Positions 15,556 to 59,305 of a stretch of 64,000 bases of DNA are shown piece by piece. Below the pieces are notes generated by a model. It was not told where the DNA came from. It worked only from the letters and a program-made list of their open reading frames with translations, and made no database searches. Numbering within the stretch: position 1 is the stretch's first letter; each line of letters opens with the position of its first letter. Source of the DNA: Terebella lapidaria (lineage: Eukaryota > Annelida > Polychaeta > Terebellida > Terebellidae); assembly GCA_949152475.1 (NCBI GenBank), contig OX424561.1, positions 20,330,481-20,394,480 of the forward strand. Reading direction: 5' to 3'. The translations under genes and the position numbers were made by a program.

Positions 15556-17508
15556 ATGCCTCGTGGATTTCTAGTCAAGCGTGCCAAGAAGCATCACGTC
15601 GAAGGGGCTGAGGAGGATCGCCCAGAGGCCGGCTCTGGATCCGATTTCGATGTGCCTCTACAGCTCTGCACGCAATTCTACCACTATCCGTATGGTTCTC
15701 CCGACTCGGGGTTCTCACAGAGCCCTGTCAACTTGACGACCAAGGACAACAGGTCCCACCGCGGGGCAAGCCCCTGCGGCAGCTCGTCTTCAGAGGAGTT
15801 CGCCAAGACCTCGCAGTCCCCAGGCAGCGACCGCACGAGCATATCCACCGACGACACTCACTCAAAGGAACATTCGCCCCGACACTTGAACGACGCCAAG
15901 GTAAACGCCAACCTAGCCCACTACCAGCCTTCTAAGTTCACCAAAAGCTCGCTGCTGCCAACGACTGCTGATCTCCAGAAAGCAGCTAACTACAGCATGC
16001 CACCACATCTCATGGCCAATCCACTGTCCGTAGCCACGTCCGCAGCCTACGGATCGCCTTTCTACTTTCCAGCCTTCGATAGACTCAGTGTCACGTCACC
16101 CAAAGGTCAGGCTTTCGCCAGAACTGTTCCATTCCTGCCGCCACCTGGACTGTTTCCAGGCTACCCACCGTACGGATTACCACCGAGACCCGCCAACACC
16201 AGCGCCCCATCCAGTCCCGGAGACTTGTCCAGCCCAAACAAACGCAAGGCTGCTGACCACGCCAACGATACCGCCCCACCTTCCAAGCCAAAATCAGCCA
16301 AGAAGCCCAAGGCCGCCCGCAAGATTCACTTCGACGAGGACAAGAGTTCCCCAGTATCTGGAACGATCATCCGAGACGCCGCGGACGTGGACGAAGACAA
16401 TGGGGTCCGAGTGGTCACTGGGGACATCGACTCCAGCCTCAACTACGTGGAGGTAACGCCCGAGGCCCGAGAGGAAATCGCCAAGATCGAAAACAAGATC
16501 GGCGCCTACGTGTGTCAGCTGTGCAAGGAGAACTTCGAGGACGTTTTCCAGCTCGCACAGCACAGCTGTCCGAGGATTGTACACGTCGAGTACCGCTGTC
16601 CCGAGTGTGACAAGGTCTTCAGCTGTCCGGCCAACCTTGCCAGCCACAGGCGCTGGCACAAACCCCGGGGAACCGCCGCCAACAACAACAATAGCGCCGC
16701 GGCTAACAACAACAATAACGGTGGGAGTGAAAACACGACCAAAGGCAAGGGCGCAGGGCCTCTCAAAGTAGCAGAGGCCAAGCGGGCACTGGATGCCATT
16801 AACGGAAACATCACAAATGGCCACTTACATCCGACTTTGTTTGTGGACAACAAACTGGCGAGAACTGAGTTCATGTTGAATTGTGGGATCGAAAACATGA
16901 TACAGCAACAGCAACAGCAGCAGAGCAATAACAACCGGTGCGTGCCGAGTCCTGACGGACAGAGCGACTCCGAGGGACAGTTCGAGTGTGAGACATGTGG
17001 TAAGAAATTCCGGCGCCAGGCCTACCTCCGCAAGCACATGTCCACCCACTCACAGTCCGAACCGTCCTTGCCCTGCCCTGTTTGCGGCAAGGTGTTCCGC
17101 AGTGAGACCGCCCACACCAAACACATGATCCAGACACACGGCACGACTCCCGCGCCTCAGCTCCCGCTACCACCAAACCCCACAACAACCGGTCCCGTCG
17201 CCAAGCCCCTCGTGTCCCCACCGCCCGTCACCTTGGAGACCCACGCCGCCCTGTCCCTGGGAGCTCGCGTGACCACGGCTGACTTCACGTGTGCTCTCTG
17301 TGGCAACGCGCTGCCCAGCAAGTTGGACCTGGAACGACACCAGCGGCTCCAGCATCCCAACGAAGTGTACTCCTGCAAGTACTGCACGGCCGTCTTCTAC
17401 AGCTCTCCTGGACTGACGCGCCACATCAACAAGTGTCACCCATCCGAGAACAGACAAGTCATCCTGCTGCACATGCCCCAGCTCCCACAGATCAATAGCC
17501 CCTGCTAG
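15556..17508 (+). CDS. INSM1: INSM1/nerfin-1-type zinc-finger transcription repressor
   Basis: A 650-residue protein in one open frame. It begins MPRGFLVKR, the SNAG motif that in INSM1 and Snail-type factors recruits the LSD1/CoREST histone demethylase complex. A Pro/Ser-rich middle follows, then a basic stretch (about 228-255: NKRKA...KPKSAKKPKAARK), a likely nuclear localisation signal. Six fingers are visible: 318-337 (Cys2-His-Cys), 346-368, 476-498, 505-528, 577-599 and 605-628. The run CPECDKVFSCPANLASHRRWH is an INSM hallmark. Asn-rich tracts (about 376-394) and a Gln run (about 451-459) lengthen it compared with the roughly 510 residues of human INSM1. The start is fixed by the SNAG motif and by an in-frame TAA at 15496. 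Known roles of the family are neuroendocrine and neuronal differentiation (INSM1, fly nerfin-1, worm EGL-46). No intron interrupts the coding region, as in vertebrate INSM1. INSM2-like naming would also fit a single ancestral gene. Confidence 0.95.
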   Translation: MPRGFLVKRAKKHHVEGAEEDRPEAGSGSDFDVPLQLCTQFYHYPYGSPDSGFSQSPVNLTTKDNRSHRGASPCGSSSSEEFAKTSQSPGSDRTSISTDDTHSKEHSPRHLNDAKVNANLAHYQPSKFTKSSLLPTTADLQKAANYSMPPHLMANPLSVATSAAYGSPFYFPAFDRLSVTSPKGQAFARTVPFLPPPGLFPGYPPYGLPPRPANTSAPSSPGDLSSPNKRKAADHANDTAPPSKPKSAKKPKAARKIHFDEDKSSPVSGTIIRDAADVDEDNGVRVVTGDIDSSLNYVEVTPEAREEIAKIENKIGAYVCQLCKENFEDVFQLAQHSCPRIVHVEYRCPECDKVFSCPANLASHRRWHKPRGTAANNNNSAAANNNNNGGSENTTKGKGAGPLKVAEAKRALDAINGNITNGHLHPTLFVDNKLARTEFMLNCGIENMIQQQQQQQSNNNRCVPSPDGQSDSEGQFECETCGKKFRRQAYLRKHMSTHSQSEPSLPCPVCGKVFRSETAHTKHMIQTHGTTPAPQLPLPPNPTTTGPVAKPLVSPPPVTLETHAALSLGARVTTADFTCALCGNALPSKLDLERHQRLQHPNEVYSCKYCTAVFYSSPGLTRHINKCHPSENRQVILLHMPQLPQINSPC

Positions 17509-18246
17509 CCTTCGCTCGACAACCCAGGGTCCTCGAGGGAAGACCTTCGAATCTCAGGTCCCAACTCGGCCCAAACCGATCATCAATAACAACAACAGGA
17601 ACAGCGACAAAGCTATGTTATTGTTCAAGGTTCCAAAGCGCGGGGTGAGCTATCTTTTCTTCATTGTATCGCTTGTTTATGGTCCTGTTGAGTGGCATTG
17701 ATTTGTGATCGTAGGGGACTCCAGGAGTCGGTCGGGAATGTTAACAGAGACAATAGACACGCCGAGGCCTTGGCTAGGGCGCGGGCTGTCAGCGCGACAG
17801 GTTCTTTATTGGGCCGATTGGTAATCATCTGGCCGGGTCTGATTGTTCCCGACGCTCGTGATGCGATCTGGGGCTGTCAATTTGAGTAGGGTGTGTTCCC
17901 GCCGAGGCCGTGGTCTCTAGCGAGGCCTCGCCCGAGTGGCGCCAAGTGTTCCCCGGGGGAGGGTCTGGGGAGGGAGGGAGCGGGCGACAGTCCTCGCCAG
18001 CATACCGCTACCGTGATTAATTCCACCACGCGGCTCTCTGTGACTGTCGCTCCGGAATGATTCAACCATGAATCAAAAGTGACTGGTGGTGAGCACCGCT
18101 ACACGCGCCTCTTCATTTGGCCAACTTGCCGGCAAATCTGGTTAGAGGGACGCCTGTGGATTAGCGAGGTGACTCGATTCAATCACGAGCAATGAAAGCG
18201 GGATTGGGTCATTATTGCCAGTGTGATTGCCGCCATTCTGTCGTTA

Positions 18247-21200
18247 TCTAGTCGAGCTGAATTTTACGGGAGAGATCTGATCTCTCCAGGTCTGACACCA
18301 GTGCATGCTGCATTGTCTTGTCAAGAGTTCAATTTACTCTTTTGTATTTCAATCAAGACAATCATCATTGAAACTGCTGAATTTCGAGCATAGAATTTCT
18401 CACCAGAGCTAATAGGGCCTGTGTGCAATAGATATGATATACACACGTTTTACTGATTATAGTGAAATATCAAACGATATTGCTATTCAATTAACTTATT
18501 ATTAATGTTTTATTGTATCTTCTAGTCATTATCTCGCATGGTTCTAGTCATGTTGCTTATCTCACAACCTTGACCCCTTCACCCCCATGTAGCTCCCGTT
18601 GAAATCTCGTCCATTGAGACGACTTTCCGGATCTTATCTATGCCCTGACCGTGGGAAATTTGCCCACGTTAAGCAAGACCAATGCTCTGTCAGGCGAGTC
18701 CATTGTTATTCATCGGGAACAATAACCAACATGCAACAACTCGTTAATGTGTGGCTAAGGCGCTAGCAACGATCTCTAATCACCGGCTAGTCACCCTAGT
18801 AACCCCGCTCACCCCCCCCCCCCCCCCCCCCCGCTGATTAATAGATAGACGTCTGTCGTCGAATTTTCGACAGTTTCTACTGTTGTTAATTTAGACGGGG
18901 ATAGAAACGGGAAAAAGACAAGAGCTGGAGACAGAAGCAGGGGGAAAGAGACTTGCTGGCTACTTTTGTTCTGTTGCCATCGCGTCCAAGAGACGTCCAC
19001 CGCTCGGTGATTCATGTGACTTGTGGGTCAGAGGACTTGTGGTCGTCTCCAACTGTCCACACGACCGGGAGGGTGGGAGCGGGGGAAGGGGGTCGTGGGT
19101 GACGGGACAGAGGAATCTGAGTAGCCGCTCATTTTCTGTAATCCAATAATTAATTAATGCAATTTCTTTGTTAGCATCTGGTCCGATTTATGAGCTAGTC
19201 ATACATGTATGCACTTGGTCAGTTTCTAGTCAATTTACTCACTTCAGTTTTAAAATAGAACTGCGGTGAGTTTTATACACAAAATGTGTGTGTTTTTTAA
19301 ACATCTAGTCCACCGAATGTATGGTTATACTGATTTTATATCTATTATTTTTAATATGAATCTATACCAGCTTGCTTTTTCTTGGCATTTACAAACTGGC
19401 ATTTTACAAAAAATAATGTTTTAATCTACTGCATAATCAATGTTTTATTAATCTTGACGTGTGCTTTTATATTAGTATATATGTTTTGTATATTTTTGTA
19501 CATTCATATCTGCACGATTCTAGTCACTGATTCAAATTATGTGCAATTTTATAGTTCCGAATTCAACTAGTTTTATGTAAACCACTGATATTGTATTTAC
19601 CATGAAATCTCAATTTATTTTATAATAATACCACGATACTGTAGTTAATATATCTTTGTGCAATGTACATGTATTACGAATACGTATTTAATATAATCAA
19701 TCAAGGTCTACAAAATCCCTCCAATGGGCGGGTGGGAATGTGGAGGGCCAATCTGGTGCAATAACAATATGTAGGCTACTCAACTACATTTGTTGTTTTA
19801 CACCGGTATCTAGTCATTGCAAAGCCAATTACCTAGTCAAACATTGCTAGTTCATTTACTATTTTTACAACAGTGTGCATATTTTTATCTCGTATATTTA
19901 TTTCATCTATGATCATCCTCGCCTCACTTCTCCGCATCAGTCATCACGTGAAATCATCTAGTCAACATTTCAGATAACTATCTCTATTATATATGTTATA
20001 CCCCACTTTCTAGTCTCTTTTTTTTCACTTTACTTTCATGATATATATACTTTTTCTGTTTTCTTTCTCCATCTCTCTCATGTAACTGTTAGCTGCGATA
20101 GTTTCCCACGTGTTTTGTAAGTTTGCTCTGTATGTACATATACAGTACGGAGATTCCATCACCCGTCTTTTAGTTGGTGTTAGAGTTAATGAGGGTTCAG
20201 TTACCGCATCCCCATTCTTGAATTACGTTGCACTCATATCGTGTTGTGACGCGATTTGTGTCCGAGTATTCCTCTACGAAACTAGAGATTGGGGAGTGAT
20301 GTTTAATTAAAACGTGCAACATCTTACCTGGGCGCCGATCAAAATTCTCTTCCGCTGAGAAACATTCTAAATCGAACACCACTTGGTAACAAAAATATTT
20401 AATTATTTGGAAAACGTAACGCGTGACTCTGCCAACGTCTTTGAGCATCGCACTGTGAGAGAAGTACGTTGGATGTTCTGGGTTTTTTTTTTCATTTCAC
20501 CTGATCTCAAATTTCTAGTCATGTTGCATGCATGTGCGTGGAATTAATTTCCATGATTTTTAAATTTCATGTACCATTTCTTATCAGAAACAAAACATAT
20601 CTAGTCGGATCAAGTCATCACACCCTAAACAGTCAGTAGCTGAGGCGCCACAACTTCAGTGTTGTGCTTGCCTGTGGCCTTTGGATGAGTTCACTAGTCG
20701 AAACAGTAGTACGGTTAGATTCTGTCTGTGTTCTTTACAACTACTGTGTTATAAGAACATACTCTTCTTTTTCTTTTTCTTCTTTTTCTTGGTACCTTCC
20801 TGAAATAATAGCTTCTGTTATCAGCCTATCGATTTACCATTGACCATTGATCATCGACATCACTTTCATTGAATGCCAAATAACTTAAACCCACCTACTG
20901 TCTATCATCAGATAATGACATGCACTGCATTATTTTTTTAATGCAAATCATGCCATTTTCATAGGCGTTGTTGTATCAAATGAACATGTATTTCAAAATG
21001 CTCACAATTTCAAGATCAAAAGACGAAAATCAATACCACAGTCGCCTTTTCAAGGTATCAATGATCTTATTCAACTGCCATGTAATGTAAATAAATTGCC
21101 ATGTTGTAGTTTATTAGAAAGCTAAAAAATGTTTATATATATATATACCCAATGTTCGCAATCAGTTTTTGTTGTTGATCATGTTGCCTTCAAATCATTC

Positions 21201-21650
21201 TCGTTGCCTTAAGACGAAAACTATGTATTGTTACTATTGTTTGTTTTTTTTGCTGTGAAATGTGTCCTTAATATATCAGTAAACACTGCATTTGCCTTGT
21301 GTGCCCCCCCCCCCCCCCCATGGTTGAACTTTATGAACTAAATTTGTTTTCTTACGAATTCGTGCATTAAAGGTTTTAAGACAACAATATATTCCTGGTC
21401 ACAGCGTATAATATTGTCGTAGTTATGATTGAGCTTTCTTTGTTGTTGTTGCAAGAGTTTATGTGCTTAAATCTACTATACAGTGTTACAGCACCATAAT
21501 TATGGTCTTAAAAACTGCGGCCTAGCACTTTTGTATTATACTTGTTGTACATATTAATATATTAGAAACAATATTTGTAGTTTTGTATCCGATGTATAAA
21601 ACGATAGTTATGAAAGTATGAAATTGTTTATATCATATACATTCCTAGTC
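18247..21650 (+). promoter_or_regulatory. Array of 16 miR-279-family seed matches
   Basis: CTAGTC occurs at 18248, 18522, 18544, 18787, 19195, 19226, 19305, 19520, 19810, 19833, 19958, 20010, 20515, 20601, 20694 and 21645. None was seen in the reverse orientation (GACTAG) over the same stretch. Seven are full 8-mer sites TCTAGTCA (18521, 18543, 19225, 19519, 19809, 19957, 20514). Four are TCTAGTC without the A (18247, 19304, 20009, 20600), three are CTAGTCA (18787, 19195, 19833), and two are bare 6-mers. The miR-279/286/996 family begins UGACUAGA, so these are canonical target sites. Irregular spacing and unrelated flanks argue against a tandem repeat. Function as microRNA sites is inferred from the match and from the known miR-279 to nerfin-1 link in flies. 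Confidence 0.75.
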
Positions 21651-21720
21651 TGACATGTTTGTATAATAGTTTGTGAATGATCGGTTACGGACTACGTGAA
21701 ATGAAATTGAAATTGTTGCC

Positions 21721-21745
21721 AATAAACAAAAGATTATTTTGTGCA
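21721..21745 (+). terminator. Candidate poly(A) signal of the INSM transcript
   Basis: AATAAA at 21721-21726 lies 71 bases after the last CTAGTC motif, with a U/GU-rich stretch about 25-50 bases further on. It is the best-placed end for the transcript; a shorter form could use 21090. Confidence 0.45.
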
Positions 21746-26961: not shown

Positions 26962-28348
26962 TGTAACGGGTTTGCACCCTTCTGTGACGTCTTGATGAAC
27001 CGGTTTTCTAGGGAGGTGGGTGAGTTGTTGTTTAACCGGAGCTGAAACGGTAAAACTCCGGGAAACTGCTACTGCTGTACGGTTGAACTCCGGCTAGAAG
27101 TCTCTAAGGTTGGTAGCGTGGTCTGGAATGGACCTCTTAACCGTTGTCCGACTGCTAATCTGCAACTGCACCTGTAAAGTAAGGATCCGGAGGCGTTTCC
27201 GTCTCCGGGTACTGCAACTGCTCCGTCGGGATACCGCTTTACTGCAACAGCTCCGTCGTTTTCCGTCTTACTGCAAACTGCGACTGCGCCTGGAATAAAG
27301 AATCCGGGAACGTTGCCGTTTCCGAATACTGCAACCGCTCTGCCAGGTTCCGCCGCACTGCAATCTGCTCCGGTTGGCTCCGCCTCACCGCAACCTGCGA
27401 CTGCACCTGAAATGGAGTATCTCGGAAGTGTTCCCACTTCCGATTACCACAACCGCTCCGTCAGGTACTGCCTCTGCAACTCCGTCGTCCGGTACCGCCT
27501 CTGCAACTGCTTCGTCGTTCCCGTCTCTGCAACTGCTCCGTCCGATACCGCCTCCGTAGTTGCTCCGTTGAATTCCACCTCCGTCTCCGTCTCCGTCTCC
27601 TTCCTCGGTGATCTGGGTTCTTAGATCACCCTAAGACGTCGTTACAACTTGGTCTTAACCGACTGTGGTCTTATCTCCCTTTACTCCGTATTACTTTCTT
27701 TTCCGGTGAACTAACTTTATTATAAATTCCAGTTCCCTAACGAACACGGAAAAACAACTCGGTTGAAGTTTTCATGTTTATTTTCCAAGTGCACAGTCGG
27801 AAGACTTAACTGCTATCATCTGGATGACTCTATCCGGAACAAGGGAGTACTCTGCTATGGGAGAAGGGGTCTGCACAGGTCGACGTCAGGACACCAACTC
27901 CGCCGTCCACTGTGAAGCGGGGGCTTTTATAGACCTGAGACCCACGTCACGTGACCAACCTATTGTGACGTCATAGTCCGCCAAAACTGATATTTTCCGG
28001 ATTTCTAAAAACACTCTAGAACCAATCAGTGGCTGACACGTCACCTTTTAAACCGAAAACGAGGCTGATCACATGACCTTCCGGAAATAACGTCATTACG
28101 TTTTTGTACTCCATTGTTCCGGCTCCGTGTCCGGTTCCGTCTCCGGTTCCGGCTCCGTCTCCGGCTTTACCGACATCATAAATTACTAAGTTCCGAGACG
28201 GAAAACCTTTAAAACATTAACAATACGGAACCGTATGAACCTTTAAACACATTATACATTTTAATAAACGGTTATTTAACCATAATATCGCAAAACACTA
28301 ACAGAATTACCTAGGGGAAACTTTTGGGTACGCCCCAAAACCGTTACA
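26962..28348 (-). repeat. 3' LTR of the Ty3/gypsy element
   Basis: 1387 bp, bounded by TGTAACGG and CCGTTACA. It carries the same TATA box (minus strand TATAAAAG at 27924-27931) as the other LTR. It contains a CTCCGT-rich low-complexity stretch that opens spurious frames on both strands. Confidence 0.95.
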
Positions 28349-30934: not shown

Positions 30935-33900
30935 TCACCGCTTCATCCATCTCGGATGCTTGACACCATTATACGGTTTCAGCAAATCGAAGTGAACCAC
31001 CTTCTGCCGAGTTTCACTCTCTGCAATCTCGTAGGTCACGTCGGTAAATTTGCTCAGCACCAGCTTTGGACCGCTCCACTTCCTCTGCAACTTGGGTGCT
31101 TTGCCCTTCTTCCGTGTTTTGACCGCCATCCACACTCGGTCTCCTGGCTGGAACTGATTGTCGACTTTCCTCCGGTCGTACAGCTTCTTCTGCCGTTCCA
31201 TCTCTCTGCCAGATTTCGCTCGAACCGCCTTGTATACTGCTTCTAGTCGCTCCCGGAGCTGACTGCCATACTCTGTTACTTCTGCTGTCGATTCGCCCGG
31301 CGGTCTGCCAATCAGTAACTCTACCGGAGTGTTGACTTCTCTGCCCAGCATCAGCAAGTTGGGACTCTGCCCGGTTGTCTCCTGCGGGGTACTCCGGTAA
31401 GCTGCCATCGCCAACGGAACTAGCTGATCCCAGTTGGTCTGCCGCTCGCTTACGTACAGGCTCAGGATCTGCTGCAGCGTCCGGTTGAATCGCTCAATGA
31501 AACCGTCCGACTGAGGTCGGAAAGCGGTTGTCCGTGTCTTGTGAATCCCCAGGATTCTGCAAACATTTCTCAGCAAGTCGGACTCGAAATTTCTGCCTTG
31601 GTCGGTGTGGATCTCCATCGGGATACTGTACCGCGCTGCAAACTGGTTGACGAATATGTCCGCAACCGTCACCGCTTCCTGATTCGGCATCGGGTAAGCC
31701 TCTACCCACTTGGTGAAGTAATCACCGATTACTAAGATGTACCGGTTCCCCCGGGTGGATTTAGGTAACGGACCCATCACGTCCATTGCCACCCTCTCCA
31801 TGGGCGCTCCAACCCGGTATTTCTGCATCGGAGATCGTTTCAAGTTCTGCATACTTCTTGACGCACATCCGTCACAGCTCAGCACCCACTGCTTTATGTC
31901 CCGCATCATAGCCGGCCAGAAATACCGCCTCCGAATGCTAGCCGCCATCCTTCTGCTTCCGAGGTGTCCTCCCGTCCGGCTCTGATGGGCCAGACGGAAA
32001 ATCTCCTGTCTCAGCTCTTTCGGGGTTATTAACTGCATTCGGTTGGTTCCTTCTGCCGTTTTCCATTTCCGGTAGACTACTCCGTCGACTTTCAGCAAGG
32101 TCTTCCGCATCCCGTACAGCACTTTCTCCTCGCTGCTCATGCTGGAAAAGTCTGCACTGCCAGCTGTACCGCTCCCGTCGATCAGCGACGTCACCAGTGG
32201 GTACCAAGGTTCTGCTTGCTGCATTCTCCACAAATCATCTGGTCGATATTTCTGCCCCAGCACAGTATCCTGGTCCGCATTTTCCGCCAGCCTAATCTGC
32301 TCTGCAACCGCATCCGCTTTTCCTGGAACTGCCTTCTCCGTCACTGCTACCGCAACCGGCTTCCAGGACGCTGCTTTCTCCGTCACCGCAACCGCAACCG
32401 GCTTCCGGGACGCTGCTTCCTCCGTCACTGCAACCGCAACCGGCTTCCGGGACGCTGCTTTCTCCGTCACCGCAACCGCAACCGGCTTCCGGGACGCTGC
32501 TTTCTCCGTCACCGCAACCGCAACCGACTTCCGGGACGCTGCTTCCTCCGTCACCGCAACCGCAACCGGCTTCCGGGACGCTGCTTTCTCCGCTACTGCA
32601 ACCGCCTTCCTTGGGACTGCTTCCTCCGTCAGTTCTGCTTCTCCGCCCGATCTCCGTGACCGCTTCCGGCGTCCCCCCTTCCTTGGCTTGGGCTGAGGAG
32701 TTTCTTCACTTCGTGTCTGCCGGATCCTTTCTCCGTAGTTCCAGGCGTCTATCTTGGCTTGTTTCCAGTCGATTTTTCCGCATTGGCTGCATGGGGATCT
32801 GGACAAGGCATCCGCATTATTATGGATTCGCCCCGGACGATGTTCGATGTCGAAATGAAACTCACTCAGGAGCTCAATCCACCGGGCTACCTGCCCCTGG
32901 GGCTCCTTGAAATTCATAAGCCAGGTAAGACTGCCATGATCTGTGCGAAGAAGGAAGTGTCGTCCCAGCAAGTACTGCTTATTCTTCTGTACCGCAAACA
33001 CAACCGCCAGGAGCTCCTTCCGGGTGACACAGTATCTCCGTTCTTCTTTGGTTAGGCTGCGGCTCAAGTAGGTTATCACCCGCTCCTGGTTGCCCTGCTT
33101 CTGTGACAGTACTGCTCCCAGCCCGGTGTCACTGGCGTCCGTGTCCAGGATATAACGGCCTTGCTCCCTTGGGTACCCGAGTATCGGTGCCGATACTAGG
33201 CGGTTCTTCAGCTCTGCAAATGCCTGCTCTTGCTCCGTCTGCCACCGGAACTGCACCCCTTTTTCCGTCAAGTGATTCAGCGGCGCTGCAATCTCGGAGA
33301 ACTTCGGCACGAACTTCCGGTAGTAGGAGTAAAGTCCCAGAAAACTGCGCAGCTCCGTCAGGTTGGTGGGTGTCCGCCACTCCCGTACTGCCTCCGTTTT
33401 TGCCGGGTCGGTGCGGATACCGTCTCTGCCGACTATGTGACCTAATAAAGACACCTCCGGCTGGAAGAACTTGCATTTTGACGGTTTGACTTTTAGGTCT
33501 GCCTCTCTCAGCTTGCTGAACACCTCCTGAAGATCACGGATGTGATCCTCCAGGGTCTTGCTGTAGACTATGATGTCGTCCAGATATATGAGGCAGGTCT
33601 TCCAGGACAATCCGCCTAGCACCTTCTCCATCAACCGCTCGAACGTACCCGGAGCATTGCACAAGCCGAAACTCATTACTTTGAACTGGTAAAGGCCGCC
33701 AGGAACACAGAAGGCCGACTTTTTCCGGGCGTCTTCATCCATCCCGACCTGCCAGTAGCCACTGGTCAGGTCGAGAGTGGAGAACCATTTGGCGTCTGCA
33801 CAGGCTGCTATGGTGTCGTCAATTCTCGGCAACGGATAAGCATCTTTCTCCGTGACTGCATTTAACCGCCGGTAATCGACACAGAACCGGGTGGTCCCAT

Positions 33901-34966
33901 CCTTTTTCTTCACGAGAACAATCGGGGAAGCCCACGGACTGCTGCTTTCTTCAATGACGTTCTTGTCTTTCATCTCCTGAATCAGACTGCTCACCAGCTC
34001 TCTCTTGTCTGGCGGAATTCGCCTGGTTGGCTGCTTAATCGGCCGGTGACTGCCCGTGTTTATCTGATGTTGTACCTCGTTGGTCTGCCCCAGTTCTCCA
34101 GCATCATTACTGAAGGTCCGCTTATTCCGAAATAGGAGGTCGGTTACTCTCTCGCGGAAATGACTCGGCACTGCATCCTGGGTCTGCTCTGCTAACTGCC
34201 GCAGCTTCTCGTACCCGCTCCAATTCCGCCCGGCCTCCGACTCCGTGGAAATCTGCACCTTCCTGCTCCGCTCCGCCAATGGCACAACACTGCAACCGGC
34301 TGCTAAGGTGGTCATCGTCGCCAACTGCGCTCCTTTCTTGATGATTACCGGCTCTGCCATCACGTTGATCACTCGAACTGGGACTGTTCCTTGCTTTATC
34401 CGGGATAAAGTTCTCCCGATCAGCCAAGGTCTTTTCTCAGTAGGCTCCTGCGGCATTTCTAGTACTCCTTCTGCTTCCCGGACATTCTCTGCTTGTCCTA
34501 TTATCAGCTGTTCCGTTTCCGGCGGAATTTGGTAATCTGCTACAGCGTTGATCGGAAACGGCTCCCTGGTCTGCTCGAACATGGTGAGGAACACCTCCTG
34601 GCTGCCCATCTGCATGGTCATTCGGTCGAAATTTATGCCGGATATCCGGGAACGGATGAAATCCATACCCAGTATTCCTTCGTCTTCACAGTCTGCAATC
34701 TCGAACGTCACGGTCTCAGCTACTCCTGCGATGTTGAGTGGGAGTTCTTTCCAGCCATGCGTCCGTATGTTACTTCCGTCAACCATTGAAAGACGAATCG
34801 GCGACCGCTTCAGTTTCATTCCGGGCTTCCGGATCCGTTCCCAGGTTTGTAGGTTGAGCATTGTGACAGTGCTGCCGGTGTCGATTATCAGCGTTACTGG
34901 CTCTCCGCATATTCTGGCTGTCACACACATGCCCACCTCGCCCCTGGGACCGGGTCCGTGAACCAC
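30935..34966 (-). CDS. pol: Pol polyprotein of the Ty3/gypsy element
   Basis: 1343 residues from the first possible start (a GTG); the frame is open further upstream and overlaps gag, lying -1 relative to it, so a -1 frameshift fusion is likely. Domains: retropepsin with DTG at 29-31; reverse transcriptase with the YLDD catalytic box at about 461-464; RNase H beginning DTDAS at about 608; a 14-residue repeat region about 775-880; integrase with the His-His-Cys-Cys zinc domain from about H994 and the catalytic triad D1062, D1122, E1158 (exactly 35 residues between the last two); then a GPY/F-type C-terminal module (WSGPKLVLSKF). The gene product copies RNA to DNA and inserts it. All catalytic residues are present. 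The repeat-bearing linker between RNase H and integrase is unusual. Confidence 0.95.
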   Translation of the reverse strand: MVHGPGPRGEVGMCVTARICGEPVTLIIDTGSTVTMLNLQTWERIRKPGMKLKRSPIRLSMVDGSNIRTHGWKELPLNIAGVAETVTFEIADCEDEGILGMDFIRSRISGINFDRMTMQMGSQEVFLTMFEQTREPFPINAVADYQIPPETEQLIIGQAENVREAEGVLEMPQEPTEKRPWLIGRTLSRIKQGTVPVRVINVMAEPVIIKKGAQLATMTTLAAGCSVVPLAERSRKVQISTESEAGRNWSGYEKLRQLAEQTQDAVPSHFRERVTDLLFRNKRTFSNDAGELGQTNEVQHQINTGSHRPIKQPTRRIPPDKRELVSSLIQEMKDKNVIEESSSPWASPIVLVKKKDGTTRFCVDYRRLNAVTEKDAYPLPRIDDTIAACADAKWFSTLDLTSGYWQVGMDEDARKKSAFCVPGGLYQFKVMSFGLCNAPGTFERLMEKVLGGLSWKTCLIYLDDIIVYSKTLEDHIRDLQEVFSKLREADLKVKPSKCKFFQPEVSLLGHIVGRDGIRTDPAKTEAVREWRTPTNLTELRSFLGLYSYYRKFVPKFSEIAAPLNHLTEKGVQFRWQTEQEQAFAELKNRLVSAPILGYPREQGRYILDTDASDTGLGAVLSQKQGNQERVITYLSRSLTKEERRYCVTRKELLAVVFAVQKNKQYLLGRHFLLRTDHGSLTWLMNFKEPQGQVARWIELLSEFHFDIEHRPGRIHNNADALSRSPCSQCGKIDWKQAKIDAWNYGERIRQTRSEETPQPKPRKGGRRKRSRRSGGEAELTEEAVPRKAVAVAEKAASRKPVAVAVTEEAASRKSVAVAVTEKAASRKPVAVAVTEKAASRKPVAVAVTEEAASRKPVAVAVTEKAASWKPVAVAVTEKAVPGKADAVAEQIRLAENADQDTVLGQKYRPDDLWRMQQAEPWYPLVTSLIDGSGTAGSADFSSMSSEEKVLYGMRKTLLKVDGVVYRKWKTAEGTNRMQLITPKELRQEIFRLAHQSRTGGHLGSRRMAASIRRRYFWPAMMRDIKQWVLSCDGCASRSMQNLKRSPMQKYRVGAPMERVAMDVMGPLPKSTRGNRYILVIGDYFTKWVEAYPMPNQEAVTVADIFVNQFAARYSIPMEIHTDQGRNFESDLLRNVCRILGIHKTRTTAFRPQSDGFIERFNRTLQQILSLYVSERQTNWDQLVPLAMAAYRSTPQETTGQSPNLLMLGREVNTPVELLIGRPPGESTAEVTEYGSQLRERLEAVYKAVRAKSGREMERQKKLYDRRKVDNQFQPGDRVWMAVKTRKKGKAPKLQRKWSGPKLVLSKFTDVTYEIAESETRQKVVHFDLLKPYNGVKHPRWMKR
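32325..32625 (-). repeat. 42-bp tandem repeat coding for 14-residue units in pol
   Basis: About seven in-frame copies encode variants of VTEKAASRKPVAVA between RNase H and integrase. Copies differ by a few residues (E/K, P/S, R/W), so they have begun to diverge. Being a multiple of three, the expansion leaves the frame open. Confidence 0.9.
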
Positions 34967-35028
34967 CTGCCGGTTATGGGGGTGTCCTCTCTTCCGGGTC
35001 CCGGATTTCCCCTTTTCCGCGACCCGCT

Positions 35029-36303
35029 CTAGTTTTCCGGCTGCTGCTGCTGCTGTCGTGGCTGCTGCAGTTGTTGCTGCTGCTGCGGCTGCTGCTGCTG
35101 TTGTCGCGGCGACTGCTGCTGTTGTGGTTGACGCCGCTGCTGCTGCTGCTTCGGCTGCCTACAGTCTCGGGCAAAATGCCCCTTCCGGCCACAGTTGAAG
35201 CATTCTAAATCTGCTCGGGAACTGCGCTGCTGCTGCTGCCGGCTAACCGCTTCCTTGACATGAGTCATCAGATCCGCCATCTGCTGCTGAGTCTGCTCGG
35301 CTTGCTTCCGCAATTCGTTCACCTGCTGGCTCCACTCCGGCTCCGTATTCAGCTGCCTCGTCCGGTGTCGCTCCGCTGGTCTGCTGTTGTCCGTCTTCAT
35401 AATACTCTCATACTCGGTAGCGAAAGCCAGGGCCTGCGACAGCGTTTCCGGGTGGCTTTTCAATACCGACAACCGCATATCTCGGTTAGTCAGACTGTTG
35501 CAGAAATGCATCTTCATGAGCACTTCTGTTGTTGCCGGATCTGCTTTTGGGTAAGCTAGCCGCGTCTTGCTCCGTATGTCTCTGGCCAGCTCGGACAGCT
35601 CCTCCTGCGGCTGCAATTTCCGTGTCTGCAATTCCGCCTGGAAAACAAATGTTTTCTCCCCCGGACAAAACTGCTGTTTTAATGCCGCCACAACCGTATC
35701 AAAGCTGCGTCTCTGCTCCGCGGACAGATCCAGTAGTATGCTGCGGGCGTTACCTCTCAAACTGACACATAAGTTCAGCGCCTTTTCCTCTGCTGTCCAA
35801 CGGTAGTACCGAGCGTATTCAAGGAGGTGAGCCTCATACTCCGGCCACGGATCAGTTCCGTCGTACGTCATTAATCTGGCTACTCCTGCCCTTGGTGCTG
35901 GTGGTTGTACTGCTTCTGCCTGCTGCTGCTTTCCGGTTACTGCCAGGTGCTGCTGAAACACCTCCATTTGGGTCGCCAATAATCTGGTCAGGTTGTCGAC
36001 TAAATTCTCTCCGCCTTCTGGTTCCGCATCCGGTTCCCGATCGCCAGCCTGGTCCGGAAAGTTAATTTCCGCCTCTGCTAACTGCTCTGCAGGCTGTACT
36101 CCTTGAGGAACCCGAAGGGGCTCTTCTGCAACTGCTTTCTGCATTTCCGGCTGCAACAGCTTTCGCTCGGCAGGACGAACTGCTTCCTTTTCCGCAACCG
36201 GCATCTGCAACGGCTCAGCTCCTACTGCTCCTACAGGCTGCTCCGTGTCCGACACGGCTGCCTTCAGCTGCTGTTCCGCCAATTTGCCCCGTCTAGTAGT
36301 CAT
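35029..36303 (-). CDS. gag: Gag polyprotein of the Ty3/gypsy element
   Basis: 424 residues from ATG. A Gln/Glu-rich N-terminus leads to a retrotransposon capsid domain (about 145-290; e.g. EKALNLCVSLRGNARSILLDL and FCPGEKTFVFQAEL). One zinc knuckle C-X2-C-X4-H-X4-C starts at C368 (CFNCGRKGHFARDC) and packages the RNA. The C-terminus is a long Gln tract (about 386-424) encoded by CAG-type triplets. The start codon lies only 10 bases after the primer site, so the leader outside the LTR is very short. It ends within the region where the pol frame, at -1, is already open. Confidence 0.93.
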   Translation of the reverse strand: MTTRRGKLAEQQLKAAVSDTEQPVGAVGAEPLQMPVAEKEAVRPAERKLLQPEMQKAVAEEPLRVPQGVQPAEQLAEAEINFPDQAGDREPDAEPEGGENLVDNLTRLLATQMEVFQQHLAVTGKQQQAEAVQPPAPRAGVARLMTYDGTDPWPEYEAHLLEYARYYRWTAEEKALNLCVSLRGNARSILLDLSAEQRRSFDTVVAALKQQFCPGEKTFVFQAELQTRKLQPQEELSELARDIRSKTRLAYPKADPATTEVLMKMHFCNSLTNRDMRLSVLKSHPETLSQALAFATEYESIMKTDNSRPAERHRTRQLNTEPEWSQQVNELRKQAEQTQQQMADLMTHVKEAVSRQQQQRSSRADLECFNCGRKGHFARDCRQPKQQQQRRQPQQQQSPRQQQQQPQQQQQLQQPRQQQQQPEN

Positions 36304-36337: not shown

Positions 36338-37725
36338 TGTAACGGGTTTGAACCCTTCTGTGACGTCTTGATGAACCGGTTTTCTAGGGAGGTGGGTGAG
36401 TTGTTGTTTAACCGGAGCTGAAACGGTAAAACTCCGGGAAACTGCTACTGCTGTACGGTTGAACTCCGGTTAGAAGTCTCTAAGGTTGGTAGCGTGGTCT
36501 GGAATGGACCTCTTAACCGTTGTCCGACTGCTAATCTGCAACTGCACCTGTAAAGTAAGGATCCGGAGGCGTTTCCGTCTCCGGGTACTGCAACTGCTCC
36601 GTCGGGATACCGCTTTACTGCAACAGCTCCGTCGTTTTCCGTCTTACTGCAAACTGCGACTGCGCCTGGAATAAAGAATCCGGGAACGTTGCCGTTTCCG
36701 AATACTGCAACCGCTCTGCCAGGTTCCGCCGCACTGCAATCTGCTCCGGTTGGCTCCGCCTCACCGCAACCTGCGACTGCACCTGAAATGGAGTATCTCG
36801 GAAGTGTTCCCACTTCCGGTTACCGCAACCGCTCCGTCAGGTACTGCCTCTGCAACTCCGTCGTCCGGTACCGCCTCTGCAACTGCTTCGTCGTTCCCGT
36901 CTCTGCAACTGCTCCGTCCGATACCGCCTCCGTAGTTGCTCCGTTGAATTCCACCTCCGTCTCCGTCTCCGTCTCCTTCCTCGGTGATCTGGGTTCTTAG
37001 ATCACCCTAAGACGTCGTTACAACTTGGTCTTAACCGACTGTGGTCTTATCTCCCTTTACTCCGTATTACTTTCTTTTCCGGTGAACTAACTTTATTATA
37101 AATTCCAGTTCCCTAACGAACACGGAAAAACAACTCGGTTGAAGTTTTCATGTTTATTTTCCAAGTGCACAGTCGGAAGACTTAACTGCTATCATCTGGA
37201 TGACTCTATCCGGAACAAGGGAGTACTCTGCTATGGGAGAAGGGGTCTGCACAGGTCGACGTCAGGACACCAACTCCGCCGTCCGCTGTGAAGCGGGGGC
37301 TTTTATAGACCTGAGACCCACGTCACGTGACCAACCTATTGTGACGTCATAGTCCGCCAAAACACTGATATTTTCCGGATTTCTAAAAACACTCTAGAAC
37401 CAATCAGTGGCTGACACGTCACCTTTTAAACCGAAAACGAGGCTGATCACATGACCTTCCGGAAATAACGTCATTACGTTTTTGTACTCCATTGTTCCGG
37501 CTCCGTGTCCGGTTCCGTCTCCGGTTCCGGCTCCGTCTCCGGCTTTACCGACATCATAAACTACTAAGTTCCGAGACGGAAAACCTTTAAAACATTAACA
37601 ATACGGAACCGTATGAACCTTTAAACACATATACATTTTAATAAACGGTTATTTAACCATAATATCACAAAACACTAACAGAATTACCTAGGGGAAACTT
37701 TTGGGTACGCCCCAAAACCGTTACA
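36338..37725 (-). repeat. 5' LTR of the Ty3/gypsy element
   Basis: 1388 bp, the promoter-bearing LTR for the minus-strand transcript. A strong TATA box (minus strand TATAAAAG) at 37300-37307 predicts a start near 37270. AATAAA signals on the minus strand lie at 37153-37158 and 37092-37097, consistent with a short R region and a long U5. Confidence 0.95.
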
Positions 37726-40084: not shown

Positions 40085-41660
40085 ACGTGTAGCTCAATCA
40101 GAAGAAAGTATAATTTTTACGTCGTCCGTCGTCCGTCGTCCGTCCATCCGTTCACATTTTTCAGTTTACGGTCGAATCCTTGGTCGAATCTTTCTGAAAT
40201 TTTGGACAAAAATACCTAAAAATAGGAGAGGAGATTTTTTTTTAGTTTTTTTTTATTTTTCGCATTTTTCTCAAAATGGCGGCCGATTTTGACGAAAAAC
40301 GCTCAATTTGACTTTGACGGCCATTTATTTCCCCTATATACCTTTGTGATGTGTATAAGTTTGGTTGCCCTTGAATCGCCGGTTTTGACGGATCAGCGAA
40401 AAAAAAATTTCGCCCCAAATCGCATTACTATCCATTTTGGGCCATTTCTAGGCCAAATTTTCTTTCACCCTTTAAACAGGACTGTACTCATAGAACTCTT
40501 GAAGATAGAAATTGGCACTTTCAAATGGGAAGTCATATATGGCAACTTGTGTGGTGACCTTGAATTTGCACCTTGTCTGTCTTTTCTCGAAAACTGTCTG
40601 ATCACTTTTGAGATTTTTGCTTCAGAACATGCTAATCAGGGTCCTTAGCATTGTTTATAAAGATGGAAGTTCTTGAATCGATCGATAGGCCCAAAATTAT
40701 GGCTCAAATGGCCCAAAAAGGCTCAACGTGTAGTTTTTGGTTGTTTTCTCGAAAACTATTTGATCAGTTTTGAGATTTTTGTTTCAAAACATGCTAATTG
40801 GGGTCCTTGACATTGTTTATAAAGAGGAAGTGCCTTGAATTGCTGAAAAAGCCCAATCAGTGGACTGGAAAGGCCGATATTTACAAATTGTCATATAGGG
40901 CAAAAACGCTTGTACATAGGGCTTAGGTTTGTATTATATAAGCATATAGGAAGTCGTATATGGTGCATCTTTTTGTGACCTTGAGGTTGGCCTCAGATGA
41001 CCTTGGAGGCTAAATTTCAAGGTCACGGGGACATGAAATGTGTTAATTGGCCTCTATAGACAAAATGCTTGTAGATAGGTTATGCTTATATTATGAGCAT
41101 TTAGGTGACTTTGGTGTCTTTTGGTGACCTTGTTGCTGACCTCAGATGACCTTGAGTACTGAATCTCAATGTCAGATCTGACATGAAATGTGTAAATTGG
41201 CTTGTGGGGCTAAAACAATTGCACATAGGTTAGGATTACATTATTAGCATATAGGGAGTCAGAAGAGCAGAATGTCACCATCTTTTGGTGGCCCAAGTAT
41301 CATATCCTGCGCCTTCCTCTATATTCAATAAGGATTAAAAAGGTGCGAAACGGATTAAATGGTATGTTTTCAGTGGACGAGTAGTATTAAGGAGCAGCGT
41401 ACGGTACTTGGGCCCTTTTGGTGATCTTAAGGTTAACGTCAGTCGACCGTGAAGGTTTAATCTCAAGATCATGCCTGACCTGAAATGTGTAAATTGGCCT
41501 TTACGGACAAAATTCTTGTAGGAAGACATTATATTTGTATTTTAAATATATGTTGTATACAAAATTATATGCAACACACCTAATGGTGAAATTGACGTAT
41601 GTACAGAAAGATGACCTTGATTGGTATATCTCAATGTCATATCTCACCTGTTGTGCTTGA
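40085..41660. repeat. Old dispersed repeat with internal tandem duplications
   Basis: Starts near a CGTCGTCCGTCGTCC microsatellite (40111-40146). A 162-bp unit beginning TTTTCTCGAAAACT occurs at 40582 and 40744. A second unit of about 150-165 bp, with GGCCTCAGATGACCTTG and GTAAATTGGCCT, recurs at about 40880-41040, 41041-41190, 41191-41290 and 41420-41530. The copy near 41290 is interrupted by a MITE. A fragment with TTGGTGACCTTGAATTGACCTCAGAT lies at 51450-51490. The class is unknown. Confidence 0.6.
41282..41422. mobile_element. MITE family 1, copy 1 (125 bp, perfect 8-bp target duplication)
   Basis: Element 41290-41414 starts GGCCCAAGTATCATATCCTG and ends in the inverted counterpart TACGGTACTTGGGCC. 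CTTTTGGT flanks it at 41282-41289 and 41415-41422. Eight-bp duplications and short terminal repeats suggest hAT-type mobilisation. No coding capacity. Confidence 0.85.
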
Positions 41661-45069: not shown

Positions 45070-45910
45070 GAACAATTCTTCTCTCAATATATTTCTGGCT
45101 TCAGAAAGCGTCATAGTTGTCAGGATGTGCTTTTAAGGTTGATTGAGAATTGTAAATATCGTGCTGACCAAGGGAACATTAGTGGTATTGTATTGACAGA
45201 CCTCTCTAAAGCTTTTGATAGTTTGCATGATGCGCTTTTTATATCGAAGTTACATGCTTATGGGGTCAGCCTTGACTCATGTAAATTTGTGGCCAATTTT
45301 TTTATGAATAGGAAACAAAGAGTCAAATTAGGTATCGATAGGAGTGACTGGCTTGATATTGAGATTGGTGCCCCACAGGGGTCCACAGTTGGACCTTTTG
45401 CCTACAATGTGTTTGCTAATGATTTAAATCTCCGAATTGAACAAATGCGAGATATACAATTATGCAGATGATAATTCAATATGCTGTTATGGGAACAGCC
45501 TCAATGATGTAAAATCTGCACTAAATATTATGTCCAGTAAGATGATTGACTGGTTTGATGTGAACTATCTGATGGCCAATCCTGATAAATTTCAGACTAT
45601 TATCTTTAACAGTAAAGAACCAGGGGGAGAACTACTGATAGATGGTCATAATGTTCCATGTGATGATGTTGTCAAACTATTGGATGTATATATTGACAAA
45701 GAAATGAATTTTAGTCCCCATATTTCTGAGATATGTAAGGCTGGAAGAAAGACTAATGCTCTTGCCCGTATTTCCTGTACATTCGATGTAAAAAAAAAAC
45801 TGGTCATGTTTGAAAGTTTTATATCTGCACAATTCAACTATTGTACTCCATTATGGAATTTCTGCAAATTGTCTGACGTCAAAAAGATGGAGAAGTTACA
45901 ATATAAAGCA
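45070..45910 (+). pseudogene. LINE A, 5'-truncated reverse transcriptase (first part)
   Basis: Translates as a non-LTR reverse transcriptase of the jockey/CR1/L2 type: ISGFRKRHSC, DLSKAFDSLHDALF, GAPQGSTVGPF, then NYADDNS, then the tail region ending MEKLQYKA. The 5' end is missing, as is usual after incomplete target-primed reverse transcription. A frameshift between about 45400 and 45460 separates the GAPQGS box from the YADD box, so it is dead. The frame is cut at 45910 by LINE B and resumes at about 47381. Confidence 0.85.
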
Positions 45911-47380
45911 AGTGGTAAATCTCCAGGCTTAGATGGCATTTCTTCTGATCACTTTAAAAATGCTGGATTGAATATTCCTATTCACATTTCCTTATCTATA
46001 ACATCTATGTTTGTACATGGTTTCCTCCCTAAATCTTTGATAAGATCTTGCATTGTTCCCATCATTAAGGATAAGAGTAACAGGATTACAGATAGTAATA
46101 ATTATAGACCTATATCTCTGTCTAATGTATTTTGTAAAATTGTTGAACATATAATTTTAAATAGAATTGATCAGTACATTTGTATTACGGACAATCAGTT
46201 TGGTTTTAGAAGTTCCCATGGTACTGAAATGGCAGTATATTTACTAAAAGAACTTTTGAAGTACTATACAAGTCATGGTTCTCACATGTTTGTTGCTTTT
46301 TTAGATGCATCTAAAGCTTTTGACCATGTAAATCACTCCCATCTTGTTTCAAAAATGGAATCGGCAGGTATCCCTCTATTTATTATAAGGCTTATTGCTT
46401 GCTGGTACTGTCATCAACAGGTGTGTGTCCGTTGGGGCTCTGTAACCTCTGAGTTCTTCAATGTAGGTAATGGCGTTCGCCAGGGTGGTGTCTTATCCCC
46501 TATATTATTCAACTTGTACTTCAATAACCTAAGCGTTAGACTTGGGCTAGTTCCTGCTGGTTGTGCTTGTGGTAACACCATTGTAAATCATATTATGTAT
46601 GCAGATGACATTGTCATATTTGCTCCCTCTGTTAAAGGTTTACAAAGACTTCTTGATGTATGCTCAGATTATGGTCAATCCCATGATATTACGTTTAATA
46701 GTGTTAAATCCCAATTTATGTTGTTTGAATCTCATACAAAGGGTGATGTCAACCTATTTACAGATGTTAAACTTGGTTCAAACTTTCTGAAACTTGTCAA
46801 CTCTTACAAATATCTGGGTCATATTTCACACATGATCTCCGTGATGACTCCGACATTAAGCATCAGCTCAGAAACTTGTACATTCGGAGCTATACACTGG
46901 TCCGTAAGTTTTATTTTTGTACATTCCTGATTAAACGGAAGCTTTTTCTAGCCTATATTTCTAATATCTATATGTCTTCTCTATGGAGCAATTATCATAC
47001 TGGTATGTATAAGTCAATTGTTGTTGCCTACAACAAATCTTTTCGAATTTTGTTTAAGTTGGATAGCCGATGTAGTGCCAGTGGTATGTTTGTGAATGCA
47101 AACGTCAATAATTTTCATGCCGTTAGGCGTAAAGCCTTTTACAGTCTTTTTACCAGAATTAGTGTGTCGAACAACATCATTCTGTCCAAACTCAGGTGCT
47201 GTGATATTTTTTATCAGTCACAATTTGTTATGTTGTGGACTAAGGAGTTGTATGTCAAAGTGTATTGTGTTTTGTAGTGTCTGGTACATCCACTGTTTGT
47301 ATCTTTTTATTGTTTTTATTATTGTAACTATGGACAGAACACTGTCTGAAATAAAAAAAAATAAAAAAAAAATAAAAAAG
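45911..47380 (+). pseudogene. LINE B, 5'-truncated copy inserted into LINE A
   Basis: A second, different non-LTR reverse transcriptase begins abruptly with SGKSPGLDGISSDHF (fingers), then NNYRPISLSNVFCKI, DASKAFDHVNHSHL, GVRQGGVLSPILFN and MYADDIVIFAP. A frameshift near 46830 breaks it; the C-terminal part continues in another frame to 47277. The 3' end is an A-rich tail made of AATAAAAAA units (47349-47380). The clade is uncertain. The AAAGC words at both junctions fit a short target duplication. Confidence 0.85.
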
Positions 47381-57377: not shown

Positions 57378-59305
57378 CGTCTGTGATCAGGGGTCGGGGT
57401 CGGGAGACAAGGACACGCCGACACTGAGAGGGTGGATGTCCACGTGGTCAGCCCGTCTGTGTACTCGTGTGCTGACAGTCTCCAGAGGTCAGGAGACAAG
57501 GACACGCGGACACTGAGGGGGTTGGTGTCCACGTGGTCAGCCCGTCTGTGTACTCGTGTGCTGACAGTCTCTAGAGGCCGGGGTCGGGAGACAAGGACAC
57601 GCGGACACTGAGGGGGTGGATGTCCACGTGGTCAGCCCGTCTGTGTACTCGTGTGCTGACAGTCTCCTGAGGTCGGGGTCGGGAGACAAGGACACGCCGA
57701 CACTGAGGGGGTGGGTGTCCACATGGTCAGCCCGTCTGTGTACTCGTGTGCTGACAGTCTCTAGAGGCCGGGGTCGGGAGACAAGGACACGCGGACACTG
57801 AGGGGGTGGGTGTCCACGTGGTCAGCCCGTCTGTGTACTCGTGTGCTGACAGTCTCTAGAGGCCGGGGTCGGGAGACAAGGACACGCGGACACTGAGGGG
57901 GTGGGTGTCCACGTGGTCAGCCCGTCTGTGTACTCGTGTGCTGACAGTCTCCTGAGGTCGGGGTCGGGAGACAAGGACACGCCGACACTGAAGGGGTGGG
58001 TGTCCACGTGGTCACTCGAGCTGTGTACTCATGTGCCGACAGTCTCCAGAGGTCAGGAGACAAGGACACGCCGACACTGAGAGGGTGGGTGTCCACGTGA
58101 TCAGCCCGTCTGTGTACTCGTGTGCTGACAGTCCCTGAGGTCGGGGTCGGGAGACAAGGACACGCCGACACTGAGGGGGTGGGTGTCCACGTGGTCAGCA
58201 CCGGCTGTGTACTCCTGTGTTGACAGTCTCCTGAGGTCGGGGTCGGGAGACAAGGACACGTCGACACTGAGAGGGTGGGTGTCCACGTGGTCACTCGGGC
58301 TGTGTACTCATGTGCCGACAGTCTCCAGAGGTCAGGAGACAAGGACACGCCGACACTGAGAGGGTGGGTGTCCAAGTGGTCACTCGGGCTGTGTACTCAT
58401 GTGCCGACAGTCTCCAGAGGTCAGGAGACAAGGACACGCCGACACTGAGAGGGTGGGTGTTCACGTGATCAGCCCGTCTGTGTACTCGTGTGCTGACAGT
58501 CTCCTGAGGTCGGGGTCGGGAGACAAGGACACGCCGACACTGAGAGGGTGGGTGTCCACGTGGTCAGCACGGGCTGTGTACTCCTGTGCTGACAGTCTCC
58601 AGAGGTCAGGAGACAAGGACATGCCGACACTGAGAGGGTGGGTGTTCACGTGATCAGCCCGTCTGTGTACTCGTGTGCTGACAGTCTCCTGAGGTCGGGG
58701 TCGGGAGACAAGGACACGCCGACACTGAGAGGGTGGGTGTCCACGTGGTCAGCACGGGCTGGGTACTCATGTGCTGACAGTCTCCTGAGGTCGGGGTCGG
58801 GAGACAAGGACACGCCGACACTGAGCGGGTGGGCGTCCATGTGGTCAGCACGGGCTGTGTACTCCTGTGCTGACAGTCTCCAGAGGTCAGGAGACAAGGA
58901 CACGTCGACACTGAGCGGGTGGGCGTCCATGTGGTCAGCACGGGCTGTGTACTCCTGTGCTGACAGTCTCCAGAGGTCAGGAGACAAGGACACGCCGACA
59001 CTGAGAGGGTGGGTGTCCACGTGATCAGCCCGTCTGTGTACTCGTGTGCTGACAGTCTCCAGAGGTCAGGAGACAAGGACACGCGGACACTGAGAGGGTG
59101 GGTGTCCGCGTGATCAGCCCGTCTGTGTACTCGTGTGCTGACAGTCTCCAGAGGTCGGGAGACAAGGACACGCCGACACTGAGGGGGTGGCTGTCCACGT
59201 GGTCAACACGGGCTGTGTACGCGTGTGCTGACAATTTTCAGAGGTCGGAGTCGGGAGACAAGGACACGCCGACACTGGGAGTATCCACGTGTTCAGCCCG
59301 GGTTC
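57378..59305 (+). repeat. GC-rich minisatellite, about 21 units of 89 or 95 bp
   Basis: The core GGGAGACAAGGACACGC recurs at about 57404, 57493, 57588, 57683, 57778, 57873, 57968 and on to 59251. Units are 95 bp when they carry the hexamer duplication GGTCGGGGTCGGG and 89 bp when they carry GGTCAGG. Most units hold TCCACGTGG, an E-box palindrome. Long open frames on both strands arise because the unit lacks stops in several frames; they are not genes. Variant units are interspersed, which suggests ongoing unequal exchange. Confidence 0.95.

Follow-up and report, generated by a model that had tools for sequence, protein, structure and literature searches.

Why should a single hexamer, CTAGTC, recur 16 times on one strand of the DNA that follows an INSM1/nerfin-1 gene? 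The gene (hereafter INSM) lies in a 64-kb stretch of DNA that was analyzed as a whole and is referred to here as the window, and an earlier note on this stretch had read the hexamers as sites for microRNAs of the miR-279 family. Our analysis supports that interpretation on the grounds of gene identity, site enrichment, strand bias, and the presence of predicted mir-279 hairpins in the genome. Judged from sequence, the 16 sites very probably form an array of miR-279-family targets, shaped by selection, in the INSM/nerfin-1 3' untranslated region (3' UTR).

In the window, CTAGTC is present 29 times over both strands, and 16 of these copies map to the + strand within 18248-21650. This recount agrees with the earlier note, which had listed 16 sense-strand copies in 3.4 kb, seven of them as the full 8-mer TCTAGTCA, and had also described the opposite-strand form GACTAG as absent; we counted zero GACTAG in the inferred 3' UTR (17509-21745), giving a strand bias of 16:0. 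The guess in that note of about five further + strand copies was too low, as 7 were found outside the cluster on the + strand (4763, 5335, 15571, 31243, 38285, 50629, and 63064), together with 6 on the - strand. TCTAGTCA itself occurs eight times in the window, exclusively on the + strand, with seven copies in the cluster and one, unmentioned in the earlier note, in the INSM coding region (15570). By class, the 16 sites comprise seven 8-mers, four 7mer-m8 sites, three 7mer-A1 sites, and two 6-mers. The strand bias bears on the possibility that the hexamers make up a cluster of transcription-factor sites in a downstream enhancer, i.e., an element acting at the level of DNA. It is general knowledge that clustered enhancer sites are common near neural transcription-factor genes; however, transcription-factor sites are usually found in both orientations, and given the 16:0 distribution, we consider an enhancer extremely unlikely.

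To a first-order expectation, the inferred 3' UTR should contain 0.67 CTAGTC and 0.072 TCTAGTCA, compared with the 16 and 7 observed; these expectations are in line with the earlier estimate of fewer than one 6-mer and about 0.05 8-mers. Besides poly-C, the most enriched words in this region were CTAGTC among the 6-mers, TCTAGTC and CTAGTCA among the 7-mers, and TCTAGTCA among the 8-mers. In Markov simulations of orders 1, 2, and 3 (400 each), 0 of 1,200 runs reached 16 six-mers or 7 eight-mers; the order-3 runs, in which the model partly encodes the motif, gave a mean of 4.0 CTAGTC and a maximum of 12. As a control from the same genome, we scanned both strands of 16 arbitrarily chosen 10-kb stretches (160 kb in total), in which CTAGTC occurred 29 times and at most 3 times per 3.4-kb window per strand. 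A density equal to that behind INSM, which the earlier note had proposed to look for in unrelated DNA, was thus found nowhere in the 160 kb of random stretches. On the basis of the simulations and this control, the probability that the 16 sites arose by chance is practically negligible.

Raw enrichment is by itself unconvincing in this genome. The tandem repeats and the retrotransposon of the window hold more strongly enriched 6-mers (these make up all 40 rows listed, with CTAGTC not among them), and 3 of 45 control windows of 4.2 kb (32 from the random stretches and 13 from the INSM window) carry a 6-mer that is more enriched than CTAGTC. What distinguishes the CTAGTC sites is their unrelated surroundings. 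In the three control windows with a stronger 6-mer, the copies belong to repeats and their flanks are related to one another (z of 28, 45, and 77), and among the 12 most enriched control windows, 11 had related flanks (z of 4.0 to 77), the remaining one being a window with 14 copies of TTCCGG in retrotransposon coding DNA, with unrelated flanks (z of 0.7) and weaker enrichment. For the 16 CTAGTC sites, flank identity was 0.273 compared with 0.264 at randomly chosen positions of that UTR (z of 0.8), neither Tandem Repeats Finder nor a repeat scan identified an array running through the sites, and the spacings between sites are irregular (22 to 951 nt). These observations argue against a CTAGTC-bearing repeat family or minisatellite that was inserted or expanded behind INSM. 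Such an origin would be in keeping with the existence of TCTAGTCA-rich repeats in the genome, among them an array with a 35-bp unit at C2:15.06 Mb and a dispersed repeat, and with the derivation of the stronger 6-mers in the 3 control windows from repeats. Based on the lack of a tandem array and the unrelated flanks, we rejected a repeat origin, which we regard as highly improbable.

The TCTAGTCA-rich repeats were observed in searches of the whole genome (761.6 Mb, with the window at C7:20330481-20394480). Close TCTAGTCA pairs numbered 722 compared with 202 for the reversed pattern, and many of those listed are visibly repeats. The 35-bp minisatellite, of which the unit opens with TCTAGTCA, extends over C2:15060299-15063171 and is found again from 15177273, with many copies in a single orientation; its transcription, should it occur, could yield a natural miR-279 sponge. 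The dispersed repeat is found on C1 and C2 (e.g., C1:16262731, C1:59651287, and C2:2316755) and contains two TCTAGTCA 25 bases apart, of which the second is often preceded by TCTAGA or a similar sequence.

Does the motif fit miR-279 better than other microRNAs? Among 40 microRNA seeds matched against the inferred 3' UTR, miR-279 alone stood out, with 14 sites of at least 7 nt compared with 0.37 expected. This panel consisted of 34 of the 38 rows of Table 1 and 2 of the 25 rows of Table 2 of a snail miRNome (PMC12261956), together with four further microRNA sequences; the Table 1 rows left out (bantam-2, 1994a, 1993-2, and 87b-1) have seeds that duplicate those of rows used. The remaining 39 seeds had uncorrected p values of 0.006 or weaker, and none of them survives correction for 40 tests. 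Next in rank were miR-2722 (2 sites of at least 7 nt, p = 0.006) and miR-92 (4 sites compared with 0.76 expected, p = 0.008), both uncorrected. The miR-92 matches in this UTR are four GTGCAAT, two of them 8-mers, and miR-92 is described as neuroblast-enriched in flies (PMC12064045). Turning to the bases that adjoin the 6-mer, a T precedes it (position 8) at 11 of the 16 sites (p = 0.015) and an A follows it (opposite position 1) at 10 of the 16 (p = 0.002), both p values being uncorrected for the 16 positions examined. Together, this T and this A extend the hexamer to the miR-279 8-mer, and positions further to the 3' side contain little information.

The mir-279 genes form a protostome family. 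A microRNA that starts with UGACUAGA, which the earlier note had suggested should be sought in the same genome, is predicted from nine hairpins, six of which are clustered within 6 kb. The 19-base start of miR-279 had two exact matches (C9:6722743-6722761 and C16:17517607-17517625) and, with one mismatch, six matches inside 6 kb (C16:33734143-33740142); the ninth hairpin is at C9:6722517. Allowing up to 3 mismatches, 391 places were found compared with 133 for a reversed control, of which the best eight and their neighborhoods were inspected. The Rfam mir-279 family RF00754 gave at least nine matches genome-wide at an E value of 0.001, with scores of 41.0 to 58.9 bits, and the nine listed are these loci. 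Each of the nine loci folds into a hairpin whose 3' arm begins with UGACUAGA, and their z values against shuffled sequences range from -1.7 to -7.4. The first 21 bases of two predicted mature forms (C9 and C16:17.5 Mb) are identical to bgl-miR-279-3p, which was sequenced in the snail Biomphalaria (PMC12261956); the same sequence, extended by one base, was listed in a clam study among novel candidates with low scores (PMC3972184). Of the 15 copy pairs in the C16 cluster, 12 align, over 65 to 92 nt, and the similarity is confined to the regions around the hairpins, with no alignment of the intervening spacers. This pattern suggests that the cluster consists of old mir-279 genes maintained by selection.

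For the sites to act as microRNA targets, they would have to be part of the INSM transcript. By eye, the first ~0.7 kb of the inferred 3' UTR is GC-rich and is followed by AT-rich, site-bearing DNA, and open frames that lie entirely inside the stretch are at most 83 amino acids long. We found no AATAAA or ATTAAA between the INSM stop codon and 20306, and the canonical poly(A) signals at 20306, 21090, and 21721 (see the table) each follow most of the sites. Because of this order, most sites should be included in any INSM mRNA that is ended by a canonical signal.

Several observations weigh against a simple array of miR-279 sites. Upstream of the 6-mer, A is over-represented at positions -5 and -6 (9 of 16 sites each, with 0.51 and 0.64 bits compared with 0.31 for the T at position 8), which pairing does not explain, and position -2 is A or T at 14 of 16 sites. 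The A-rich positions, left unaccounted for by seed pairing, would fit a CTAGTC motif that is bound by an RNA-binding protein instead of a microRNA, and the strand bias and scatter of the sites suit any RNA-level element. However, the bases on either side of the hexamer complete the miR-279 8-mer, the genome contains nine predicted mir-279 hairpins, and the pairing of miR-279 and nerfin-1 has been demonstrated in flies; we know of no RNA-binding protein with a CTAGTC motif, although no search aimed at one was made, and consider this explanation very unlikely. Pairing of the sites to the 3' part of the microRNA, evaluated against shuffled tails, gave modest support, being slightly better for the main mature form, i.e., the one identical to bgl-miR-279-3p (P = 0.018 and 0.026), and for one mature variant (P = 0.015). 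No significant advantage was seen for the main variant of the cluster (P = 0.106), and the second C9 hairpin did less well than the majority of its shuffles (P = 0.953). The spacing of the sites shows no more cooperativity than would be expected by chance (3 close pairs compared with 1.85 expected, P = 0.27), neither the AU content of the flanks (P = 0.19) nor accessibility (P = 0.08) shows a clear rise, and the sites at 18542 and 20513 have 15 nt in common, so that they are possibly non-independent. Among the predicted hairpins, six of nine score below the Rfam gathering score of 56 (one at 55.5 and five at 41.0 to 53.7), with three above it, and three have weak shuffle z values (-1.7, -1.8, and -2.0). 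Finally, a shorter transcript with 8 sites could result from the weak hexamers AATATA at 19647 and 19690. With these points taken into account, we still favor a selected array of miR-279-family sites.

The identification of the gene as INSM1/nerfin-1, given in the earlier note, is borne out by its protein product, which opens with MPRGFLVKR (SNAG motif), bears INSM-type C2H2 fingers, and has human INSM1 as its top match in PDB (E value of 4.5e-55). Alignment with 15 database proteins from several phyla (13 named, 2 unnamed) gave identities of 41-54%. Scans of two sequence collections for INSM relatives turned up none, neither among 71 pattern-matching stretches of viral_contigs nor among 23 of genome_contigs. 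Among the 120 relatives listed, those with names are mostly insulinoma-associated proteins, which come from molluscs, a nemertean, a brachiopod, a priapulid, chelicerates, and deuterostomes, with annelid rows labeled as hypothetical proteins; the best matches are mainly unnamed or lophotrochozoan. Genome-wide, a single full-length INSM match was found (1509 bits compared with 42 bits for the runner-up). The relatives listed and the genome search place the protein nearest to INSM, not to another zinc-finger family. The earlier note had implied a mollusc as the host; in a tree of 39 rows, 16 mollusc rows form a supported (starred) clade that excludes the INSM protein of the window. The latter was weakly joined in two sets, one of five rows with Capitella and three without names (93/94) and one of three rows with Capitella and P0002 (92/74); a second annelid row, Ridgeia, which has a long branch, was placed elsewhere without resolution, and no starred set of this tree includes the INSM protein of the window. 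Taken with the protein matches and the protostome distribution of mir-279, the tree lends no support to a mollusc and makes a lophotrochozoan, perhaps an annelid, the probable host. With respect to the TCTAGTCA copy in the coding region, INSM uses CTA for 4 of 43 Leu, GTC for 12 of 32 Val, and TTT for 4 of 23 Phe codons, and multiplying codon frequencies gives a chance of ~0.006 for this copy, which was noticed post hoc. It may be an additional miR-279 8-mer, and coincidence is also possible.

Positions of the INSM gene, the CTAGTC sites, the poly(A) signals, and the mir-279 cluster (window coordinates unless a C number is given)
Feature	Position	Strand	Description
INSM1/nerfin-1 gene	15556..17508	+	intronless, intact, 650 codons/amino acids, SNAG N-terminus and C2H2 zinc fingers
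TCTAGTCA 8-mer in INSM coding region	15570..15577	+	spans F-L-V-K codons of SNAG motif
Inferred INSM 3' UTR	17509..21745	+	~4.2 kb, extent inferred from sequence
Site 1	18247..18253	+	7mer-m8
Site 2	18521..18528	+	8mer
Site 3	18543..18550	+	8mer, 22 nt from site 2
Site 4	18787..18793	+	7mer-A1
Site 5	19195..19201	+	7mer-A1
Site 6	19225..19232	+	8mer, 31 nt from site 5
Site 7	19304..19310	+	7mer-m8
Site 8	19519..19526	+	8mer
Site 9	19809..19816	+	8mer
Site 10	19833..19839	+	7mer-A1, 23 nt from site 9
Site 11	19957..19964	+	8mer
Site 12	20009..20015	+	7mer-m8
ATTAAA	20306..20311	+	first AATAAA/ATTAAA hexamer past the stop codon; 12 of 16 sites precede it
Site 13	20514..20521	+	8mer
Site 14	20600..20606	+	7mer-m8
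Site 15	20694..20699	+	6mer
AATAAA	21090..21095	+	alternative poly(A) signal; 15 of 16 sites precede it
Site 16	21645..21650	+	6mer
AATAAA	21721..21726	+	GT/T-rich stretch downstream; best candidate for distal end; 16 of 16 sites precede it
mir-279 cluster	C16:33734094-33740157	one strand	six predicted hairpins in 6 kb

Elsewhere in the window, a long terminal repeat (LTR) retrotransposon of the Ty3/gypsy type occupies 30935-36303 on the - strand and encodes protease, reverse transcriptase, RNase H, integrase, and a zinc-knuckle gag protein; it had no close named match among the 120 relatives listed. A 117-bp repeat unit flanks it on both sides (27160-27413 and 36536-36789) and is probably part of its LTRs. 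A second reverse transcriptase frame (RVT_1), of the non-LTR type by look, is present at 45437-46930, and a 95-bp minisatellite of ~20 copies at 57395-59281. Repeats rich in TGACCT/AGGTCA are found at 40968-41255 and recur in the genome (loci L014, L017, L019, L020, and L022).

How does the array compare with known systems? In Drosophila, heads of mir-279/996 mutants show massive nerfin-1 derepression (PMC4456407), in agreement with the statement in the earlier note that miR-279 represses nerfin-1 in this fly. In Drosophila larvae, miR-279 is made in glia, less in neuroblasts, and hardly in neurons. In PicTar, nerfin-1 is the top-scoring target, with many scattered sites that the authors partly ascribe to alignment errors (PMC1183519), and MovingTargets lists 3 sites for Drosophila nerfin-1 (PMC1180435). 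The array behind INSM resembles the Drosophila miR-279/996/286-nerfin-1 system in the seed, the target gene family, and the presence of several sites, and differs from it in its 16 seed matches, of which 14 are at least 7 nt, in its nine predicted mir-279 genes, and in its host, probably a lophotrochozoan. Moreover, fly nerfin-1 is also a known miR-9 target with predicted miR-1 sites (PMC12064045), whereas here no other seed is clearly enriched. Tribolium nerfin-1 has strongly conserved predicted miR-279 sites (PMC6961396), and the beetle has several paralogues (miR-279a to e), of which one belongs to the cluster mir-279e~2944c (PMC4691753); this case is similar to ours in the predicted sites on nerfin-1 and the several mir-279 paralogues and differs in that it concerns an insect and is a prediction only. 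In C. elegans, the INSM gene egl-46 is repressed by the tissue-specific miR-1 via its 3' UTR (PMC10981687), which likewise combines an INSM gene with a microRNA acting through the 3' UTR, although the microRNA named in those excerpts is miR-1 and not a member of the UGACUAGA family. The bantam-hid pair of Drosophila differs in gene, microRNA, and its smaller number of sites. In the part of the open-licence literature that was surveyed, we found no report of a miR-279-INSM pair in lophotrochozoans, and the precedent there is from insects only. The pair is known in insects, and the array described here is an extreme new case of it.

In the mechanism that we propose, the mature 3p products (UGACUAGA...) of the nine predicted mir-279 genes would guide Argonaute to INSM mRNA, and the many canonical sites per mRNA would result in additive, steep repression; by analogy, an array of this kind is expected to act as a steep off-switch. 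INSM protein would be off wherever miR-279 is made and present just in cells without miR-279. We infer in this model that the sites are transcribed, that the microRNAs are expressed and repress INSM, and in which cell types this takes place. A broader and more tentative scenario, which we consider possible but somewhat doubtful, is that miR-279 and INSM constitute an ancestral protostome neural-fate switch, kept for >500 million years with turnover of individual sites at high number. Both of its sides would have been amplified here (nine genes and 16 sites), the INSM off-state would be near-digital, and INSM mRNA would be a notable miR-279 sink.

To our knowledge, deep conservation of a microRNA-target pair has seldom been demonstrated across phyla, as individual sites turn over. 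An array of 16 sites in what is probably a lophotrochozoan suggests that evolution may keep the wiring and not the individual sites. With its many sites, this natural 3' UTR also lends itself to studies of how the number of sites relates to the strength and steepness of repression, and the array, if shared by relatives, would be evidence for an ancestral protostome switch.

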